From positions 1 to 35,877 of the IMG/VR virus record IMGVR_UViG_3300025286_000058: 35,877 nucleotides of DNA; one strand, written 5' to 3'. Every line of letters starts with the position of its first letter. The first letter of the stretch is position 1. The stretch is from a virus. The position numbers and the translations under genes were made by a program. The notes under the pieces are model-generated. The model saw only the letters and a program-made list of their open reading frames with translations, had not been told where the DNA came from and did not search any database. Positions 3,953-35,877 of this stretch are shown here, piece by piece.

Positions 3953-4506
3953 AACATTTTGTCGCGTACTGCGAGGGAGAAGAGGCTGAGTTCGACGCCA
4001 ACACCTGGGCGGAGGCCGAAGCAGAGGCCCTTGACTGGGCCGTAGAGGGAATGGAGGGCTATTCCGACGGCCTCCCACATACTACATGGGTGGATTGCAA
4101 ACTGGTCGAGGAGGACGACGACGGGGAAGAGGTAGACAGCCATCGCTACCACAATATCCCCGTAGAACCGAAAGAGCCGGAGTGCGAAGGGGTGGAGGCG
4201 GGCCTACTTCAGGACCCAGATACTAATCGATGGGAAACCGACCCAACCGATGGGCGGCACGATTGGGAATCACCGCATGAGGTGGTCGGCGGAATGGCAG
4301 AAAACCCCGGTGTCCACGGCCACGGCGGAGGCGTAATAGTACGAGAGGTATGCCGGTGGTGCGGTATGTACCGTGTCGATGATAGCTGGGCGCAGAACCC
4401 AGAAAACGGCGCGCAGGGGTTGAACTCCATAGCCTACGAATGCGCGGACAACGAGAGCTTGGAATGGGTATATGCACGTCTCGCCGTCGCAGAGAATAGC
4501 GACTAG
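3949..4506 (+). CDS. acidic protein with C-terminal CxxC motif, unknown function
   Basis: This 185-residue, strongly acidic protein has an N-terminal half rich in D and E (KLVEEDDDGEEVDS). The C-terminal part contains HDWESPHEVVGG, a HGHGGG stretch and VCRWCGMYRVDDSW, an arrangement I recall from small uncharacterised phage and bacterial proteins. The CxxC with nearby histidines could bind zinc. The acidic charge is also compatible with DNA mimicry, which is speculation. AGGAGGAGATACG precedes the ATG, and the start overlaps the previous stop. Confidence 0.75.
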   Translation: MKHFVAYCEGEEAEFDANTWAEAEAEALDWAVEGMEGYSDGLPHTTWVDCKLVEEDDDGEEVDSHRYHNIPVEPKEPECEGVEAGLLQDPDTNRWETDPTDGRHDWESPHEVVGGMAENPGVHGHGGGVIVREVCRWCGMYRVDDSWAQNPENGAQGLNSIAYECADNESLEWVYARLAVAENSD

Positions 4507-22490: not shown

Positions 22491-22526
22491 AGAAAAGGCC
22501 CAAAGGCTTACGCGCCTTTGGGCCTT
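22491..22526 (-). terminator. strong intrinsic terminator within the late operon
   Basis: AAGGCCCAAAGGC-(6 nt)-GCCTTTGGGCCTT is a perfect 13-bp hairpin (22495-22526), followed on the minus strand by TTTTCT. It lies between the 59-residue gene and the scaffold gene, 12 nt before the scaffold ATG. It would act as an attenuator or mRNA-end element separating packaging/ejection genes from head genes. Confidence 0.8.
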
Positions 22527-28891: not shown

Positions 28892-30717
28892 TAGCCTCTA
28901 GGCCCCGTAAGGCCAATACCCGCCAGGCGTTGCTCCATACTGGCCTGCGCCCCCGGCCTAGCCTGACCTGGGAGGGTAGGCCCGCCCGCGTTGGAATTAT
29001 TCGATTGCCTGGGCGACGGGGGCGCTCCCTGGGCAGAGTTGGAGAAGACCTCTGGCGCTGGCCCACCAGGACTCACCCCGCCTCCATTTATCTGGTTACC
29101 CTGGAAAAGTCCTCCACCCACCATGCCCATCATCTGCATCTGCACTATCCGCTGCTGGTAGAGCATCATTAGCTGGTCAAAATACATCTGGGCCAGCATA
29201 GGCTCACCACGCTCCGCCAGCGCCATCCCCATCGTGTAGAGCGTGGTCTCCGGCAGCATCCGCTCCCCTAGCTGCGCCTTCACCGAATCGGCTATCACGC
29301 TCGTCTCCGGGAAGCGCATTATCTTCTCGCGAATATACGTATCGTCCGCCAGAGGTACAGGCCCCTCCCTGAGCATCTGTGCCACCGTTATCTTGGTCAT
29401 ATCGTCTTCCGGTAGCTGCGGGATGAGCTTTACCTCCGGATGGCACCCCTCCCGCACCACCCAGGCGGGGATAATCTTGGTCTCGCTGCGGATGTTCTTA
29501 CACGGAATGGCGAATTCAAAGAACCTCTCAGAGCCGTACATCTCCGCTATGATGTCCAGAATCTGCTCGTAGGCGTTCTGGACGGCATCCAGACGCGGGG
29601 TAAGCGCCGTATCCGCGCCTTGCTTCAGAGAGTTGATGGCGAAGCCGGAAAGCTGAAACTGAAGTTCCCCGAAGACGGCGTGGGAAAGCCCGCCCCGCTG
29701 CATCTCCCCAGAGATTAGGCCAAGAATGTCACCCAAGCGTTGTGACATTTCCGCCACTTGCACGGGTTCCAGCGACTCCCCTTCCGCCAGCGCAATCTCC
29801 AGTGACGAGCGGTTGGGGTCGCTCTCAAGCACCTTGGAGCCATCCCGCGAGGTGAGTACCCAGGAGCGGTCACGGGTCTTGAGCACCAGGTCGAATACCG
29901 CCGACATAAGCTGGTTGTTCTTCGGAATGATGCCACGGTTCTCCTCAAAAATGGACTCCATGTACGCATCAATCATATCGTTAGCGGAATCGCGCTGAAT
30001 CATCGGTGCGGTCTCTACTGGCGCAAAGAACACCGGCACTTTATCCGCCCCGTGAGATGTGCGCTTCTTCAGAATCCGCCCATCCATGACCACGGCGTTA
30101 ATATTTCGGTCGTAGTAATCGTAGACATCTATCCCCACATCCATCCCCTGGTCATCCGGCAGAGTCAACCGCCGGAGACCGTACTCCGCCATGATAGCCC
30201 CTTTGGTTTTCTTGAGCTTATTACAAGCCCAATCCAACTCCCCATCCCCACCCACTTCCCAATAGGTGTGGAGGATGTCCCAGGGCATAATGTCGGCAAA
30301 AGTATTCTCGTGCCGGTCTGTACGGAGAAGTGCCCGCCCCACCACACCACCACGGACGGTAACGTACCAAGCCAACTGGCTCCGTAGCCGACCACGCTTT
30401 CTGAGCCGACCATCCGCCATCTCCAACGCCCCGGTGAGGAACATCTCCTTAGCATCGTCTATCATCCGCTGGTGTTCTAGGTCACCGGGGTGGCTGATCG
30501 AGACGATAAGTTCAGCCTGGGTAATCCAAGCGATTATCTTCTTGGCGACAACCTTGGGCATATTGGAGGTATAGAAGCCGTAATCGGCGGGTGCATCATC
30601 CGCCGTCCGCTCCAGCATGAAGAGCTTCTCATCAGCCCTCATCCTATCCCGGAGGGCGCTGGTCTGCCGGTGGTGCCTATCTACCCGTTCGCGGATTTCG
30701 TCTGGTAGCGATGCCAC
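28891..30717 (-). CDS. portal protein (probable)
   Basis: This 608-residue protein follows the large terminase with a 41-nt overlap, the usual terminase-portal order. It contains helical and strand segments typical of portals: an N-terminal RERVDRHHRQTSALRDRMRA, a central VPVFFAPVETAPMIQRDSAN and DAYMESIFEENRGIIPKNNQ, and long C-terminal helices with ILDIIAEMYGSERFFEF. The last roughly 80 residues are G/N/P/Q-rich, as in a flexible tail. Length suits portals of short-tailed phages. The call relies on gene order and size. Confidence 0.75.
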   Translation of the reverse strand: MASLPDEIRERVDRHHRQTSALRDRMRADEKLFMLERTADDAPADYGFYTSNMPKVVAKKIIAWITQAELIVSISHPGDLEHQRMIDDAKEMFLTGALEMADGRLRKRGRLRSQLAWYVTVRGGVVGRALLRTDRHENTFADIMPWDILHTYWEVGGDGELDWACNKLKKTKGAIMAEYGLRRLTLPDDQGMDVGIDVYDYYDRNINAVVMDGRILKKRTSHGADKVPVFFAPVETAPMIQRDSANDMIDAYMESIFEENRGIIPKNNQLMSAVFDLVLKTRDRSWVLTSRDGSKVLESDPNRSSLEIALAEGESLEPVQVAEMSQRLGDILGLISGEMQRGGLSHAVFGELQFQLSGFAINSLKQGADTALTPRLDAVQNAYEQILDIIAEMYGSERFFEFAIPCKNIRSETKIIPAWVVREGCHPEVKLIPQLPEDDMTKITVAQMLREGPVPLADDTYIREKIMRFPETSVIADSVKAQLGERMLPETTLYTMGMALAERGEPMLAQMYFDQLMMLYQQRIVQMQMMGMVGGGLFQGNQINGGGVSPGGPAPEVFSNSAQGAPPSPRQSNNSNAGGPTLPGQARPGAQASMEQRLAGIGLTGPRG

Positions 30718-32077
30718 CCCAACTCCTCATCTGTACGCGCTGGCGGTGCTGGCTAGTTACGTAGCCGTACCTGTCCACCAACCCGTAAATTATGGCCTTG
30801 ATGCCGTGGTTGAAACGGTCTTCAGGCTCTTGTCCTATGATGTTATCATTTCTATCCAACCGCCAGCGGTATGCCTGTAGCTGCTCCGTGTGGGGGTTGA
30901 GCGCCACCCCCATCTCAGAGAGCACGCCCTGGCAGTGAGGCGCTATCACGATGCTTGTCCAGTTCCGGAGCGGGTCGAACTTAAGGAAACTCTTTAGGCG
31001 TTCCGTGCCCTGGTTTATCGGTATCTTCTGGCTCCGGAGATACACCTGGGCCTTGGATTGCCACACCTCCGCCGGAGCGGGCATCGCCTGGTGATACGTT
31101 CCAGAGATGTCAATAGCCCCACCACGCACATCTGACCACCAAGGCTTATTCACGGCGATGCCGATAATGTCATCGGTAATAAACCGCTCGTAAATCTCAT
31201 CAATTATCCAGATTTGGCCGTTTATCTCCTGGGCTACCTCCACCGCGTAGGCCCCCGCATACCCAGGGTCAATCCAAAGATAGACCGGCTCGCCCCTCAC
31301 GTAAGAGATGTTCTTGACGTGATAGTTGGCGTTGAACTCAGGGAATACCAAGCCCTTCGGCGGCACCGCCCGGCCCTCAATCCGCTCCATGAAGAAGGTG
31401 TCAGAGGACAGCCTCTTGAGGCGCTGGATTTTCGGGTCGTTGATACCTCCCTCGTAGAGATAGACGTTAGTGTACGAAGGGAGCCGGAAGGAGGCGCAGC
31501 CCTCCTCATGCTTCCACGCCTCCGCCACCTGCGGATACCATCCCAACGAGCCTTCCAGTGTTCCCGAAATGAACACCCAGGCATCTTTTGGCGCGGCGCG
31601 GCCTATAACGCGCTCAAAGGACTCCAAATCAAGACCCGCACCCTCACAGACGATAATCCCACGCGGGGCTTCCATCCGGAGCTTGGAGGGGTCGTTGGCA
31701 GACTTGGATTTCACCACCAGCATCGGCTTGGCGTCGGTGTTAGCACCGAACACCTCAATCTGGCCTGGGTCTAGCCTTTTGGTGGTCTTGGCGTTGTTGC
31801 CGAATATCGCCTGCATATCCGAGGCGATATATTCAAACTCCCGCCGGTTCCCCTCATAATCGGCGGAAACCAACCAGTAAATGGCTGGCTCCTCATCCAC
31901 CTCACCAAACCGGGAAAGGAAATATTTAGAAGCACAAATGGATTTGCCAGCCTGCTCACCTCCGGTAACGATGGTGAACTGCTGGCGGGACTCTAATATG
32001 GGCCGCTGGGCATCTGTCGGGGCGAACTTAACCGCCTCAAACAGAGCCTCCTGGACATCCTGGGTAGCGGTGGTCAG
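30677..32077 (-). CDS. terminase large subunit (TerL), no canonical start before the P-loop
   Basis: Read from CTG 32077, the 466-residue protein has Walker A GGEQAGKS (39-46), a Walker-B-like GIIVCEGAG (Cys144-Glu145), coupling motif FISGTLEGSLGWY (about 170-180), and nuclease acidic residues in LWIDPGYAG (Asp270), WIIDEIYE (293-294) and GAIDISG (Asp323), then NHGIKAIIYGLV. This is the DNA-packaging motor and headful/cos nuclease. GTG 31900 would remove the P-loop. Above it the frame has only CTGs, back to a TAG at 32078-32080 that ends the preceding gene in the same frame. Asp is replaced by Cys before the Walker-B Glu. Confidence 0.9.
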   Translation of the reverse strand: MTTATQDVQEALFEAVKFAPTDAQRPILESRQQFTIVTGGEQAGKSICASKYFLSRFGEVDEEPAIYWLVSADYEGNRREFEYIASDMQAIFGNNAKTTKRLDPGQIEVFGANTDAKPMLVVKSKSANDPSKLRMEAPRGIIVCEGAGLDLESFERVIGRAAPKDAWVFISGTLEGSLGWYPQVAEAWKHEEGCASFRLPSYTNVYLYEGGINDPKIQRLKRLSSDTFFMERIEGRAVPPKGLVFPEFNANYHVKNISYVRGEPVYLWIDPGYAGAYAVEVAQEINGQIWIIDEIYERFITDDIIGIAVNKPWWSDVRGGAIDISGTYHQAMPAPAEVWQSKAQVYLRSQKIPINQGTERLKSFLKFDPLRNWTSIVIAPHCQGVLSEMGVALNPHTEQLQAYRWRLDRNDNIIGQEPEDRFNHGIKAIIYGLVDRYGYVTSQHRQRVQMRSWGGIATRRNPRTGR

Positions 32078-32224
32078 CTACTTATTCTTAGCCTTCCCCC
32101 CCCTGGACTTGCCCGCTTTGGAAAGACTTATAGCGACGGCTTGCTTCGTAGGGCGGCCCTCGCGTTTTAGCTTCCTTACGTTCTTCCCGATAGCTTTCCG
32201 GGATGAGCCACGCTTAAGAGGCAT
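32078..32224 (-). CDS. small basic phage protein (48 aa)
   Basis: The frame reads MPLKRGSSRKAIGKNVRKLK, then EGRPTKQAVAISLSKAGKS and a lysine-rich end. It matches a small basic protein type I recall as widespread in phage genomes and often near packaging or replication genes; its function is unknown. GAAAGGAGCGTTCTG precedes the ATG. Its stop is immediately followed in the same frame by the terminase. Confidence 0.8.
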   Translation of the reverse strand: MPLKRGSSRKAIGKNVRKLKREGRPTKQAVAISLSKAGKSRGGKAKNK

Positions 32225-32558
32225 CAGAACGCTCCTTTCGCCGCCTCCCGGCGTATCTGTAGCACACACAGCCGCCGATAGGCTGATAAGACTCCTCGCC
32301 CCCAGCCCTATGGTACACGACATCCGGCTCCAGCCCAACCATCCCCAGCCATTCCCGCCCACACCGGCTCCTGGCCCAATCAGGGTGTGGGTTCGTCCAG
32401 AGAAAGCGACTTTCGCCTCTGCCAGCCTGCTTCCTTGGATATTCGGGCTGATGAAGACCAACCTTAATCACAGCACCCACCAGAGCGTAGTACCCCTCCT
32501 CCACACTCTCAACCCGGTAGTCGCTCAACCGCAGCATCCGCGTCCGTTTCCCTCTCAT
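32214..32558 (-). CDS. unknown protein upstream of TerL
   Basis: From ATG 32558 the 114-residue product is basic, reads MRGKRTRMLRLSDYRVESVE and contains several Cys (SRCGREW, GGCVCYRY). AAGGAGG lies about 12 nt before this start; ATG 32537 (107 aa) and ATG 32570 are alternatives. It overlaps both neighbours. Function unknown. Confidence 0.55.
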   Translation of the reverse strand: MRGKRTRMLRLSDYRVESVEEGYYALVGAVIKVGLHQPEYPRKQAGRGESRFLWTNPHPDWARSRCGREWLGMVGLEPDVVYHRAGGEESYQPIGGCVCYRYAGRRRKERSDAS

Positions 32559-32769
32559 CTTGGTGGCCATCCTCCTTAACCTCCGCTAGAAAGTCCGCCT
32601 GTTCGTAGAAATACTCCCACTGAGGCGCTTCCCCCACTTTCTGAATCGGCTCCTCCAAGCGTATCTTCACCAGGGCGTTCAGGCCGTTCTCCACTACCAT
32701 GCCCACACAGTGCTGGAAAAGAGACGTGTGTTTATCGCCCTCTTCGGAGAGCGTTGGATACACCACCAT
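32509..32769 (-). CDS. first gene of the packaging transcription unit, unknown function
   Basis: This 86-residue acidic protein reads MVVYPTLSEEGDKHTSLFQH and contains EYFYEQADFLAEVKEDG. It begins about 25 nt after the predicted start of transcription from the extended -10 promoter at 32801-32809. The SD is weak (GCAAGAGAGTC). An in-frame GTG a few codons upstream is possible. It may be a short-leader product; no motif is recognised. Confidence 0.6.
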   Translation of the reverse strand: MVVYPTLSEEGDKHTSLFQHCVGMVVENGLNALVKIRLEEPIQKVGEAPQWEYFYEQADFLAEVKEDGHQDERETDADAAVERLPG

Positions 32770-32800
32770 GACTCTCTTGCCAACAGCTATCACGGTGGCG

Positions 32801-32831
32801 ATTATAGCAAACGGGGTTAAAAAGAGAACCC
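32801..32831 (-). promoter_or_regulatory. extended -10 promoter for the packaging/structural operon
   Basis: On the minus strand TGCTATAAT is a perfect extended -10 (TGnTATAAT; plus-strand 32801-32809). The -35 region is poor, as is usual for extended -10 promoters. It lies immediately downstream of an intrinsic terminator and about 25 nt before the operon's first ATG. Confidence 0.65.
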
Positions 32832-32860
32832 CCTGCCGGTGAGGGAACAACGACAGGGGG
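32815..32860 (-). terminator. intrinsic terminator ending the small-terminase operon
   Basis: On the minus strand CCCCCTGTCG and CGGCAGGGGG form a 10-bp stem (one G-U pair, 12-nt loop) followed by TTCTCTTTTT. The equivalent plus-strand stem has a C-A mismatch and no U-run. It lies 53 nt after the stop of the 201-residue gene. Confidence 0.85.
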
Positions 32861-32912
32861 CTGTAAGGAGGTGATGGAGGCCGCTGCGGAAGCCTCCACT
32901 CCGAATTATATC

Positions 32913-33518
32913 CTACTCCAACAGGAAGTCCACCGTTTTTCCAATCTGCACCTTCCCCACGTAATCCAAATATTCGCCATAGTGCTTCTTCAGCCAGTCC
33001 TGGATACACCCTGCGCAGGCAAACAGCCCACCCGGGACGCCCGTCAGCTTCACCTCAGTCATAAGAAAATGGCTCGGCTGCGGCGGCTTACAGCACGGAC
33101 TTTTAGATGGCTTCGGTAAGTCCTTAAGATTCACACCAGAGTGTATTATCAGCATCTGAAGGTGTGGTTTCTTAGAGATGGCCTGCTCTGTAACATTCTT
33201 GCCCAACACGGATTGCGCCTGCTCAGCAGACACTAACGGCACACCCGCTGAATTCATGATATGAAGGTTGGCATAGCCCGAAATCGCCAGCTTCACACTC
33301 TGCTGTCCGGCGGCGGCGCTGGAAGCCGCCGCCGCCGCGTTGGCTTTGTCTACCATCTTGTCACCAAACTGCTCCCGTATCATCCGGTCGTAGGCCCCCC
33401 GGTGCGGGTTGACCTTGGTAGGCTTGTTCTTCTTCTTATACGGCCCATTATCTTGCGCCACAATAGCGTTCTTAATGATTGTAGGGTCAAAGAGCGGCGG
33501 TATCTCATCTTTAGCCAT
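32913..33518 (-). CDS. unknown protein with Cys-rich C-terminus
   Basis: This 201-residue protein has a basic N-terminal part (YKKKNKPTKVNPHRGAYDRM), an Ala/Ser-rich linker (NAAAAASSAAAGQQ), a central VKLAISGYANLHIMNSAG, and a C-terminal Cys cluster (SPCCKPPQPSH, LFACAGCIQDW) that could bind zinc. AGGGAGAAGATAA precedes the ATG. It is the last gene before the operon's terminator. Function unknown. Confidence 0.7.
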   Translation of the reverse strand: MAKDEIPPLFDPTIIKNAIVAQDNGPYKKKNKPTKVNPHRGAYDRMIREQFGDKMVDKANAAAAASSAAAGQQSVKLAISGYANLHIMNSAGVPLVSAEQAQSVLGKNVTEQAISKKPHLQMLIIHSGVNLKDLPKPSKSPCCKPPQPSHFLMTEVKLTGVPGGLFACAGCIQDWLKKHYGEYLDYVGKVQIGKTVDFLLE

Positions 33519-33717
33519 TTATCTTCTCCCTCCTTACGTCTCTGCCACAGTCCCGACAGGCATATATCCACCACCGACCGAACCGCCGCCTGGAGAGCCA
33601 GTACACCCCACCACAGTCCTCGGTGTGCCCTTCAATCACCGGAGCGCCTGGCCTATCCCATACGCCAGGCAAAACAGGGCTAACATCGCTATCGCCAAGA
33701 GGAGCGTGCCCAACCAC
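33511..33717 (-). CDS. small Cys-containing protein (68 aa)
   Basis: The frame contains EGHTEDCGGVYWLSRRRFGR and IYACRDCGRDV: H31, C35, C54 and C57 could form a zinc site. GTG 33717 overlaps the TAG of the HTH gene by one base and has CCGGAGCGG upstream; a TTG at 33762 is an alternative with GAGGTG upstream. Function unknown. Confidence 0.55.
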   Translation of the reverse strand: MVGHAPLGDSDVSPVLPGVWDRPGAPVIEGHTEDCGGVYWLSRRRFGRWWIYACRDCGRDVRREKING

Positions 33718-33941
33718 TAACCGCTCCGGCCCAGAGGCTGCGGGGATTTCATGTCCCTCCAACGCACCTCAATGGCTTCCCCCATCATAATAGCCAGGGC
33801 GTTCTCCGGGATGAACCTCTTCCGTGCGGAAAGCTTCACATACGGCACCCTCCCGGCCTTCATCGCCTGCTGGATGGTAGATAAGGACACGCCAACTTTG
33901 ACGGCGAACTCATTTTCCGTTAGAAATGCGATTTCGTTCAT
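33717..33941 (-). CDS. excisionase/MerR-like HTH DNA-binding protein
   Basis: This 74-residue protein begins MNEIAFLTENEFAVKVGVSL and continues STIQQAMKAGRVPYVKLSAR plus FIPENALAIMMG, the pattern of the HTH_17/excisionase winged-helix family. Such proteins are small DNA-binding regulators or directionality factors; no integrase is present, so regulation is more likely. CTTAAGGAGAATT precedes ATG 33941 (ideal SD). Confidence 0.75.
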   Translation of the reverse strand: MNEIAFLTENEFAVKVGVSLSTIQQAMKAGRVPYVKLSARKRFIPENALAIMMGEAIEVRWRDMKSPQPLGRSG

Positions 33942-33949
33942 AATTCTCC

Positions 33950-34219
33950 TTAAGGCGGGTCTAGCTGCGCGTATTGCTGGCAGGGGATGCCGAAGTCTTC
34001 CTTGTACTTCTTTCTCCGCCACATGCATGAATCACAGAGCACCTTCCCCGCTTGCTCCGCCGTCCCATACTTCTTCCAGGGGCCTACCAGCCGGTAGAAA
34101 CCGGCGGAGCCAACGGCGCTCTCAAAGCCCTTGACCTGCTGTTTGCATCCCGCGCACCGGACGGTCAACGGGCCGAAGCTGGGAGCATCGGTGAACTGGC
34201 GGTAGGTGTATCTAACCAC
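33950..34219 (-). CDS. small four-cysteine zinc protein
   Basis: This 89-residue protein (GTG 34219) has C22-x2-C25 (CAGCKQQVKG) and C62-x2-C65 (LCDSCMWRRKK), a four-cysteine zinc arrangement with basic flanks. GGAG lies about 10 nt upstream; TTG 34246 is a longer in-frame alternative. It overlaps the end of the preceding gene. Probably nucleic-acid or protein binding; function unknown. Confidence 0.6.
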   Translation of the reverse strand: MVRYTYRQFTDAPSFGPLTVRCAGCKQQVKGFESAVGSAGFYRLVGPWKKYGTAEQAGKVLCDSCMWRRKKYKEDFGIPCQQYAQLDPP

Positions 34220-34580
34220 GCTTATCGAACTCCACGGCCCACGCAACAGGCAGGATGTGGTGAGAGGCCATCGTGCACCCTAAGTTAAACATCTCAGCCA
34301 GCGACACACAGTAATACCTCGGCTCGACATGTTCATGTGGTGACCAAGGCCGGTGAACCATCCGGCTCAACGTCCAGTGCGCACCCTGGAATAACCCATA
34401 AGGCACTACCACCACCCTGGATAACACCTTCCTCCAGCGCGGCCAAGCAAAGTAATTCCCTTCCATCACCATCGTACAGCCCGGAAAGGCGACGGCCTCA
34501 CCCTCCCGGTATACACGGAAGGAGCACGCCAAAAATATCCAGAGGTGTCTACCAAAGTCCAGCATTACGGTAAACCGCAT
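34212..34580 (-). CDS. unknown protein, possible permuted papain-like fold
   Basis: This 122-residue aromatic-rich protein reads MRFTVMLDFGRHLWIFLACS and contains GCTMVMEGNYFAWPRW, SPHEHVEPRYYCVSLAEMFN. The His and Cys order (H near EHVEP, C in YYCVSL) is faintly like permuted NlpC/P60-type phage proteins, but this is weak. There is no SD (TTCCTTGGTTTA before ATG). Function undetermined. Confidence 0.5.
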   Translation of the reverse strand: MRFTVMLDFGRHLWIFLACSFRVYREGEAVAFPGCTMVMEGNYFAWPRWRKVLSRVVVVPYGLFQGAHWTLSRMVHRPWSPHEHVEPRYYCVSLAEMFNLGCTMASHHILPVAWAVEFDKRG

Positions 34581-34620
34581 TAAACCAAGGAAGGAGCCAA
34601 AAAGCAACCATTAACCAGTG

Positions 34621-34800
34621 TTAGACGTTAAAACGGGTAGTCTGATGCTGAATGGCCGGTATCAACAGGGATTGCTTGCACTTCTTGCACCGGCCCTTGC
34701 GGCTATCTGGCTGGAGGATGATGTGATGAGGCGTGCCGTTAGGGCAACGGACAAGGTTCTTCCAGTGCGTCTGTTCCCGCCGAATCTGCGACTCAGGCAT
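34621..34800 (-). CDS. small zinc-knuckle-like protein (59 aa)
   Basis: From ATG 34800 the product reads MPESQIRREQTHWKNLVRCP, then HHIILQPDSRKGRCKKCKQS. C19, C38 and C41, with HH nearby, suggest a zinc site. GGAAGG lies 7 nt upstream, adjoining a G9 run. A TTG/GTG extension upstream to 34908 stays open but begins beyond the homopolymer. Function unknown. Confidence 0.55.
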   Translation of the reverse strand: MPESQIRREQTHWKNLVRCPNGTPHHIILQPDSRKGRCKKCKQSLLIPAIQHQTTRFNV

Positions 34801-35039
34801 AGCTGGCCTTCCCCCCCCCTGGCTGGCGTCCTCCCGCCAAATAAACTCTTGCACCCCTGGGCCACAATAATGGCCCGCCTGGTGATATTTACCTGGAACC
34901 CCGTCCAAGGAGGGCTATTAGTCCTCTCGCAGCCACCAGTGAGACGCTGCGTGTCACATCTTACCGGGTTCATCCGGAGCAGCTTATTTATTTTCCTTGG
35001 CTGGCTATCTGCGGGCCAGCCAGAAGTCAGTTAGTCAGC

Positions 35040-35069
35040 TTGACTTTATCGGCTGGTGGGAGTTACGAT
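35040..35069 (+). promoter_or_regulatory. sigma70-type promoter for the putative small RNA
   Basis: TTGACT (35040-35045), an 18-nt spacer and TACGAT (35064-35069) match the consensus at 5/6 and 4/6 positions. It points rightwards into the hairpin array at 35073-35148, which ends in a good plus-strand terminator and contains no start codon-led gene. Confidence 0.5.
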
Positions 35070-35072
35070 ACT

Positions 35073-35148
35073 GGGGCTTGTACCCCGTATCGTGTCCTCC
35101 CACGATATGTAAGAGGCCCCTGGAAGTGACGCCAGGGGCTTTCTTATT
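35073..35148 (+). ncRNA. putative small RNA with UCCUCC loop
   Basis: This is about 75 nt with three consecutive stem-loops: GGGG-CTTGTA-CCCC (35073-35086), TATCGTG-TCCTCC-CACGATA (35088-35107, perfect 7-bp stem), and a terminator hairpin (35116-35139). The exposed UCCUCC is complementary to GGAGGA Shine-Dalgarno cores, which precede many genes here. Upstream DNA (GTGGGAG 35056-35062, ACGATAC 35065-35071) can pair with the same bases, so a longer transcript would have an alternative fold hiding the loop. No ORF is present. Function as a translation regulator is inference. Confidence 0.5.
35114..35148 (+). terminator. plus-strand intrinsic terminator of the small RNA
   Basis: GCCCCTGG (35116-35123) pairs with CCAGGGGC (35132-35139) around an 8-nt loop, followed by TTTCTTATT. 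On the minus strand the hairpin is followed by CTCTTACAT, a poorer U-tract, so the plus orientation is favoured. Confidence 0.7.
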
Positions 35149-35265
35149 GTCTGGGAATCCATCGGCGCGATGTTAGCGCGCCCATGGCGAAGGAGTCAAG
35201 TCCTCGGAGTCCCTGGCTGAGTTGGGGCTGGTGTACGTTTCCAGTATGGCCATTCCTCTCCTTTC

Positions 35266-35790
35266 TTATACCGAGGGCGTCATCTCCTCAATCTCTTCCT
35301 CTTCCTTCTTCTTCCCCTTCTTCCCCCCTGCCCGGATGTACTCCCGTATCTTCTGCATCGTCTCCTTCGCTTGCTCGTCACTCATAGCCGCCGCAGGCCG
35401 GTACTTGTTCGGCAGATTCGAGTTCAATAACGTTATCAAAAGAATCGGACTCACGTTATCCCCCTGCCTCTTTACCCTCTCCCACGCAAATACCTCCAAC
35501 CTGTCGTTCCACCTGTGCTCCGCCTCCGCCCTCCTCGCCTTGAACCTCAATACGTCGTTCGTATACCACGCCTTCGCCGTTCCCGCACTCACCCCCGCCC
35601 TGTCCGCCGCTATCGAGTTTACCTTCACATCTGCGTAATGCCTAAGATACCGGTTCTGGTTCTCCCAACTCTTCTTCTGGTTGGGTTGCAATAAGTCTAG
35701 GTCTACTCCGTAATCACCTGGGTCGCTCCCCTCCCAGATGGAAGGCTCCAGAGCGCCATTAGGTGGTAGTTCTGGCTTAGGCGTGGGCAT
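35266..35790 (-). CDS. terminase small subunit-like DNA-binding protein
   Basis: This 174-residue protein has an HTH region (VKVNSIAADRAGVSAGTAKA) followed by a long helix and ILLITLLNSNLPNKYRP, the tail signature of phage small-terminase HTH proteins, then a Lys/Glu-rich C-terminus (KKGKKKEEEEIEEM). It would recognise the packaging site and recruit TerL, which is encoded 3.2 kb downstream, an unusually large separation. GAGGATAGAGAGG precedes the ATG. It is transcribed from the putative promoter at 35823-35831. Confidence 0.75.
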   Translation of the reverse strand: MPTPKPELPPNGALEPSIWEGSDPGDYGVDLDLLQPNQKKSWENQNRYLRHYADVKVNSIAADRAGVSAGTAKAWYTNDVLRFKARRAEAEHRWNDRLEVFAWERVKRQGDNVSPILLITLLNSNLPNKYRPAAAMSDEQAKETMQKIREYIRAGGKKGKKKEEEEIEEMTPSV

Positions 35791-35831: not shown

Positions 35832-35877
35832 GACTGGCTCTCCGGGCGTCTCAGACCGGCAGGGATGCCCGTAGGTG

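Follow-up and report, generated by a model that had tools for sequence, protein, structure and literature searches.

Layout of the record and of the terminase interval

IMGVR_UViG_3300025286_000058 is an uncultured-virus contig of the IMG/VR collection; its 35,877 bp were analysed as a whole and are called the window below. Its left end carries plus-strand genes, and the remainder of the record is mainly a minus-strand structural block which includes TerS and TerL. Between terS and terL, a gene-free stretch of 110 bases resembles a complete small-RNA gene, and we found no coding signal at 35040-35150, the three frames of each strand being scored non-coding. This had been presented in a preliminary description as the only long gene-free stretch, which is overstated, as the 4.5-6.8 kb region around the tRNA-Ile gene is likewise poor in genes. 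On the other hand, the promoter-like pair, the stem-loops and the U-tailed terminator reported there are all present, and so is the perfect stem that closes a TCCTCC loop. The features are the following:

left end to about 4.5 kb, plus strand: genes for an HTH protein, an exonuclease and a DnaC-like helicase loader
6,004: tRNA-Ile
30677 to about 32080, minus strand: TerL
35040-35069, plus strand: promoter-like site, sigma-70-like (TTGACT at 35040-35045, 18-nt spacer, TACGAT at 35064-35069)
35056-35071, plus strand: upstream arm (GTGGGAG ... TACGATAC), a possible sequestering partner of the loop; it overlaps the -10 box
35073-35086, plus strand: 5' hairpin GGGG-CUUGUA-CCCC, which needs an RNA start at or before about 35073
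35088-35107, plus strand: central hairpin, perfect stem TATCGTG/CACGATA, loop TCCTCC at 35095-35100
35109-35147, plus strand: intrinsic terminator (stem 35113-35142, given here as extended), followed by CTTATT
35266-35790, minus strand: terS, terminase small subunit, start at 35790 (phrog_4044, E 1.3e-5)

Relatives of TerL were found at three loci of the GTDB species genomes, with 32-36% identity, and since all three lie in Chloroflexota/Dehalococcoidia assemblies, the host of this virus is likely a Chloroflexota bacterium. The TerL frame itself (30677-32080, minus strand; Walker A TGGEQAGKS) runs open for about 60 codons 5' of the first ATG, GTG or TTG, so that a rare start codon is probably used. 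We also observe, at the right end of the window (35875-35877), that three further contigs, drawn from three data sets, stop at 35875, and that none of the contigs compared extends beyond this end. Such a common stop suggests that the genome has a fixed end there, or else that the assemblies break at the same place; the minimum of the cumulative GC skew lies at this end too.

Promoter, hairpins and terminator

The promoter-like site matches the consensus at 9 of 12 positions, its -10 box at only 4 of 6, and would start an RNA at about 35074-35078. Over its full length the plus strand of the window has just five sites of comparable quality, so that one would fall by chance in the 110 nt preceding the terminator with a probability of about 1.5%. 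The terminator has an 8-nt loop and a U-rich 3' side (CUUUCUUAUU), its stem core reaches -20.1 kcal/mol, and with its T-rich tail it is oriented on the plus strand, as expected at the end of a small-RNA gene read from this promoter. Besides it, the window has a single credible intrinsic terminator, and stems of -18 kcal/mol or lower were present in 2 of 20 whole-window shuffles. A strong match at 33308 was discarded: it is a GGC-repeat hairpin within a gene, with a poor tail. On the minus strand, a strong terminator-like hairpin of 13 bp stands at 22495-22526, between the gene of a 1,362-aa protein and putative scaffold/capsid genes. Just past the plus-strand terminator, at 35160-35191, there is an inverted repeat CCATSGGCGCG/CGCGCCCATGG; in the near-identical contig L006 a G replaces C at 35163, which makes its stem perfect.

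The same stretch stands out by its folding. When 109-nt windows were tiled across the record (n=651), the tile 35036-35144 had the lowest z of all against shuffles (-6.33, rank 1 of 651); a separate calculation on 35040-35148 gave -5.73, and the subregion 35054-35106 taken alone -5.7. Considering this rank, the terminator, the nearby promoter, and the fact that the last credible plus-strand gene 5' of the terminator ends at 4,506, a dedicated plus-strand unit is likely, with an RNA product of about 73-76 nt. An antiterminator role, by the pairing GGGGCUU/AGGCCCC, was rejected: the pairing appears in no minimum-energy (MFE) fold, and the window has no downstream plus-strand gene to control.

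The loop sequence, taken alone, tells much less. Of the 22 perfect hairpins of the window (stem of at least 7, loop of 4-8), only that at 35088-35107 has an anti-Shine-Dalgarno (anti-SD) loop; however, 0.54% of 6-mers contain CCTCC, so that about 0.2 such loops are expected by chance among the window hairpins of both strands, and the loop by itself is no evidence.

Exposure of the loop

It had been proposed that the bases at 35056-35071 sequester the loop in an alternative fold and that the RNA acts as a switch. The alternative pairing does exist: 35056-35071 pairs with 35087-35103 over 15 bp, around an inner GGGG/CCCC helix of 4 bp, and this is the MFE structure of the full stretch. The arm, however, lies upstream of the predicted start: with the -10 box at 35064-35069 transcription would begin near 35075, which leaves 35056-35071 outside the RNA. 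The partition function separates the two situations clearly: with a start at 35064 or further downstream the UCCUCC loop is 95-100% unpaired, and with a start at 35054 or further upstream, where the arm is part of the RNA, its CUCC is about 99% paired. According to these models the exposure of the loop is decided by the start site, without any refolding event.

A bistable switch, in which the arm of a longer RNA would alternately hide and show the loop, agrees with the existence of two mutually exclusive pairings that have 35088-35094 and the loop in common. But in the longer RNA the hidden fold (-31.6 kcal/mol) is better than the exposed one (-20.3 kcal/mol) by about 11 kcal/mol, so that no balanced switch results even with the arm present; its inner part would moreover be the first to form during transcription, and the sole nearby promoter-like site, the one put forward together with the switch, starts the RNA 3' of the arm. 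We thus consider such a switch highly improbable. What is kept of the initial proposal is the self-contained gene with an exposed anti-SD loop, as the best reading of the anatomy.

Comparison with relatives

A TerL profile search of IMG/VR gave 446 relatives, the best 80 of which were retained. Three contigs are about 99.9% identical to the record and carry the element unchanged; they show 1-9 differences per aligned 6-15 kb, so few that this conservation says nothing about selection. Beyond them, the TerL of the relatives is 44-56% identical, the nearest standing at 56%. Their TerS-TerL gap (L015-L071) may be nil, the genes overlapping, or reach as much as 1.9 kb, compared with 3.2 kb here (32080-35265), and its content, where examined, is unrelated: this interval is a variable slot occupied by different small genes in each relative.

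The covariance search that had been recommended was run with two models, R1 for the long fold and R2 for the promoter-defined fold. Neither found a credible match in the loci of the relatives, and a search of their whole records was empty as well, but had no positive control. Among 32 terminators of the relatives, none is preceded within 140 nt by an anti-SD hairpin, and in IMG/VR neither the terminator pattern nor a 22-mer spanning the loop matched anything but the three near-identical contigs. These contigs were also the only ones recovered by single-protein scans with TerS, TerL and a 201-aa protein; INPHARED contained no phage related by DNA. In Rfam, at gathering as well as relaxed thresholds, the window gave the tRNA-Ile only and nothing credible in the RNA region. 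As the homologues are limited to contigs about 99.9% identical, there is no covariation, and conservation neither supports nor refutes a function. Within the collections searched, the element thus appears to be an orphan of this phage lineage; at present it is a well-formed orphan candidate.

Several resemblances were set aside. The 14-mer CGTGTCCTCCCACG occurs in at least 120 stretches; among the matches listed, none is followed by a convincing terminator and most hairpins do not extend, so that we ascribe them to chance. In L068 a terminator-like hairpin of the gap sits within an open frame of 382 aa, and that of L018, an AT-rich palindrome placed directly behind TerS, has no anti-SD hairpin with it. 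Several relatives (L018, L029, L034 and L039) have a stretch in common just 3' of TerS, which reads ATTAATCTGTCAGAGG in L034 and L039 and is similar in L029; it is possibly a promoter or a regulatory site.

This lack of conservation bears on the reading in which the unit is just a barrier: the terminator would halt antisense transcription before terS, and the hairpins and the loop would have no function as RNA. The terminator is indeed the best supported single part of the unit, and the loop has neither conservation nor statistics on its side. A mere barrier, however, leaves unexplained the exceptional fold of 35054-35106 as well as the nearby promoter, and we regard it as unlikely.

The relatives also bear on a function at the level of DNA. 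The segment 35056-35103 forms a 48-bp imperfect palindrome with repeated ACGATA boxes, which might be a protein-binding site beside terS—a terminase recognition site, the operator of a regulator or a replication site. Both strands fold equally well, as a palindrome predicts; the palindrome takes in both the -10 box and the start, adjoins terS, and lies about 770 bp from the contig end common to four assemblies. Against this, no homologous palindrome is seen in the TerS-TerL gap of the relatives, several of which have almost no gap, and a directional terminator adjoins the palindrome. A DNA element seems quite unlikely.

Predicted targets of the loop

Sites of the GGAGG(A) type precede most plus-strand genes and several minus-strand ones, terS among them, which bears out the earlier remark that many genes here use ribosome binding sites complementary to the loop. 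When the loop was paired with 31 gene starts, terS ranked first, with 10 bp including one G-U and -17.7 kcal/mol: its ribosome binding site TGGGAGGATA, located immediately before the 35790 start, gives the best predicted pairing, that of UGUCCUCCCA with UGGGAGGAUA. About 0.85% of random 43-mers reach this energy, so that among 31 genes a best match this good is expected about one time in four, and the statistic is weaker still because gene starts are rich in SD sequences. Averaged over all 31 starts, the pairing energy shows no clear excess (36 of 200 shuffled loops did as well), and the intermolecular helix between terS and the loop is absent from the minimum-energy co-fold of both RNAs.

Relation to described RNAs

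The CcsR or "cuckoo" RNAs, small RNAs of Rhodobacter and other alphaproteobacteria, carry a C/U-rich anti-SD loop motif and resemble our unit in this respect. By contrast they derive, by processing, from a transcript shared with a DUF1127 protein gene (PMC10253847), whereas here a lone promoter-terminator unit is found. The DUF1127 Pfam family was absent from TerS and from the proteins encoded at 34621-34908, 33717-34028 and 32913-33518.

NfeR1 of Sinorhizobium meliloti, of the alpha-r14 family, is an anti-SD RNA with CCUCCUCCC motifs that represses translation (PMC10746234), and SisA of Caulobacter, with an anti-SD loop, also represses translation (PMC12559287). The likeness to alpha-r14/NfeR1 lies in the three-hairpin RNA with an unpaired anti-SD sequence which pairs with translation initiation regions. 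However, CCUCCUCCC is present in all three hairpins there, whereas the present unit has one UCCUCC loop and up to three hairpins; the alpha-r14 RNAs are moreover alphaproteobacterial and not from phages. By analogy our unit might then be likened to the functional class of NfeR1 and SisA, without membership in those families. A weak alignment to the mmgR/suhB RNA (RF00519), over a CUCCC stretch and the terminator, scores 13.2 bits against a gathering threshold of 41 (E 4.9), and membership was rejected.

Among phage-encoded regulatory RNAs, lambda OOP, P22 sar, aQ and PreS are likewise short phage RNA genes, of which OOP, sar and aQ act antisense on phage mRNAs (PMC12197685). They occupy genome positions other than the TerS-TerL interval, and are not known to have an anti-SD loop.

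Possible role of the RNA

Our tentative reading, which we hold at somewhat less than an even chance, is that of an orphan plus-strand phage small-RNA gene whose exposed UCCUCC loop blocks GGAGG-type sites, terS being the best predicted partner. The gene would lie within the late block of the minus strand, between TerS and TerL and in antisense orientation. Transcription would start near 35075, from the promoter-like site at 35040-35069, and stop at the terminator; the product would measure about 73-76 nt and fold into two or three hairpins according to where exactly it begins. The central one would then offer an unpaired UCCUCC, a copy of the anti-SD sequence of the ribosome, which might base-pair with GGAGG-type ribosome binding sites and thus block the translation of one or few mRNAs; the terS of the phage itself would be the first candidate target. 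A broader version, in which the RNA mimics the 3' end of 16S rRNA, its loop acting widely on SD sites so as to restrain translation in the host or to set the timing of terminase synthesis, while an upstream start gives a locked inactive form, appears very unlikely to us.

Next in line comes a cis-antisense role, since the unit has an antisense orientation within the terminase interval; together with the bare terminator, this role is the closest rival of the reading we prefer. terS and terL are on the opposite strand with the RNA between them, so that a late transcript spanning the interval would be its perfect partner over 73-76 bp. The mirror hairpins, with UCCUCC and GGAGGA loops, could begin a kissing interaction, and the pairing could uncouple terS from the downstream genes or process its transcript. 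In this direction, the minus strand folds as strongly as the plus strand (-31.9 vs -31.6 kcal/mol), and OOP, sar and aQ are precedents (PMC12197685). On the other hand, the putative late transcript must span 3.2 kb, a promoter-like site at 35199-35170 (minus strand) could start a new one, and the partner sequence is untranslated; a cis-antisense function is in our opinion rather unlikely, though a serious contender. The minus-strand GGAGGA loop was also considered as a ribosome binding site, and rejected for want of a start codon at usable distance downstream.

Returning to the anti-SD reading, should the RNA be produced and functional, a virus of Chloroflexota-like bacteria would possess a phage-borne anti-SD small RNA; to our knowledge, little work on phage regulatory RNAs exists in this group. 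An RNA placed in the variable slot between the terminase genes could, if this reading is true, set terminase levels. Besides, an open frame of 26 codons, whose ribosome binding site, AAGGAGAGGAATG, is strong, lies right after TerS (35175-35253, minus strand) and possibly encodes a short peptide.
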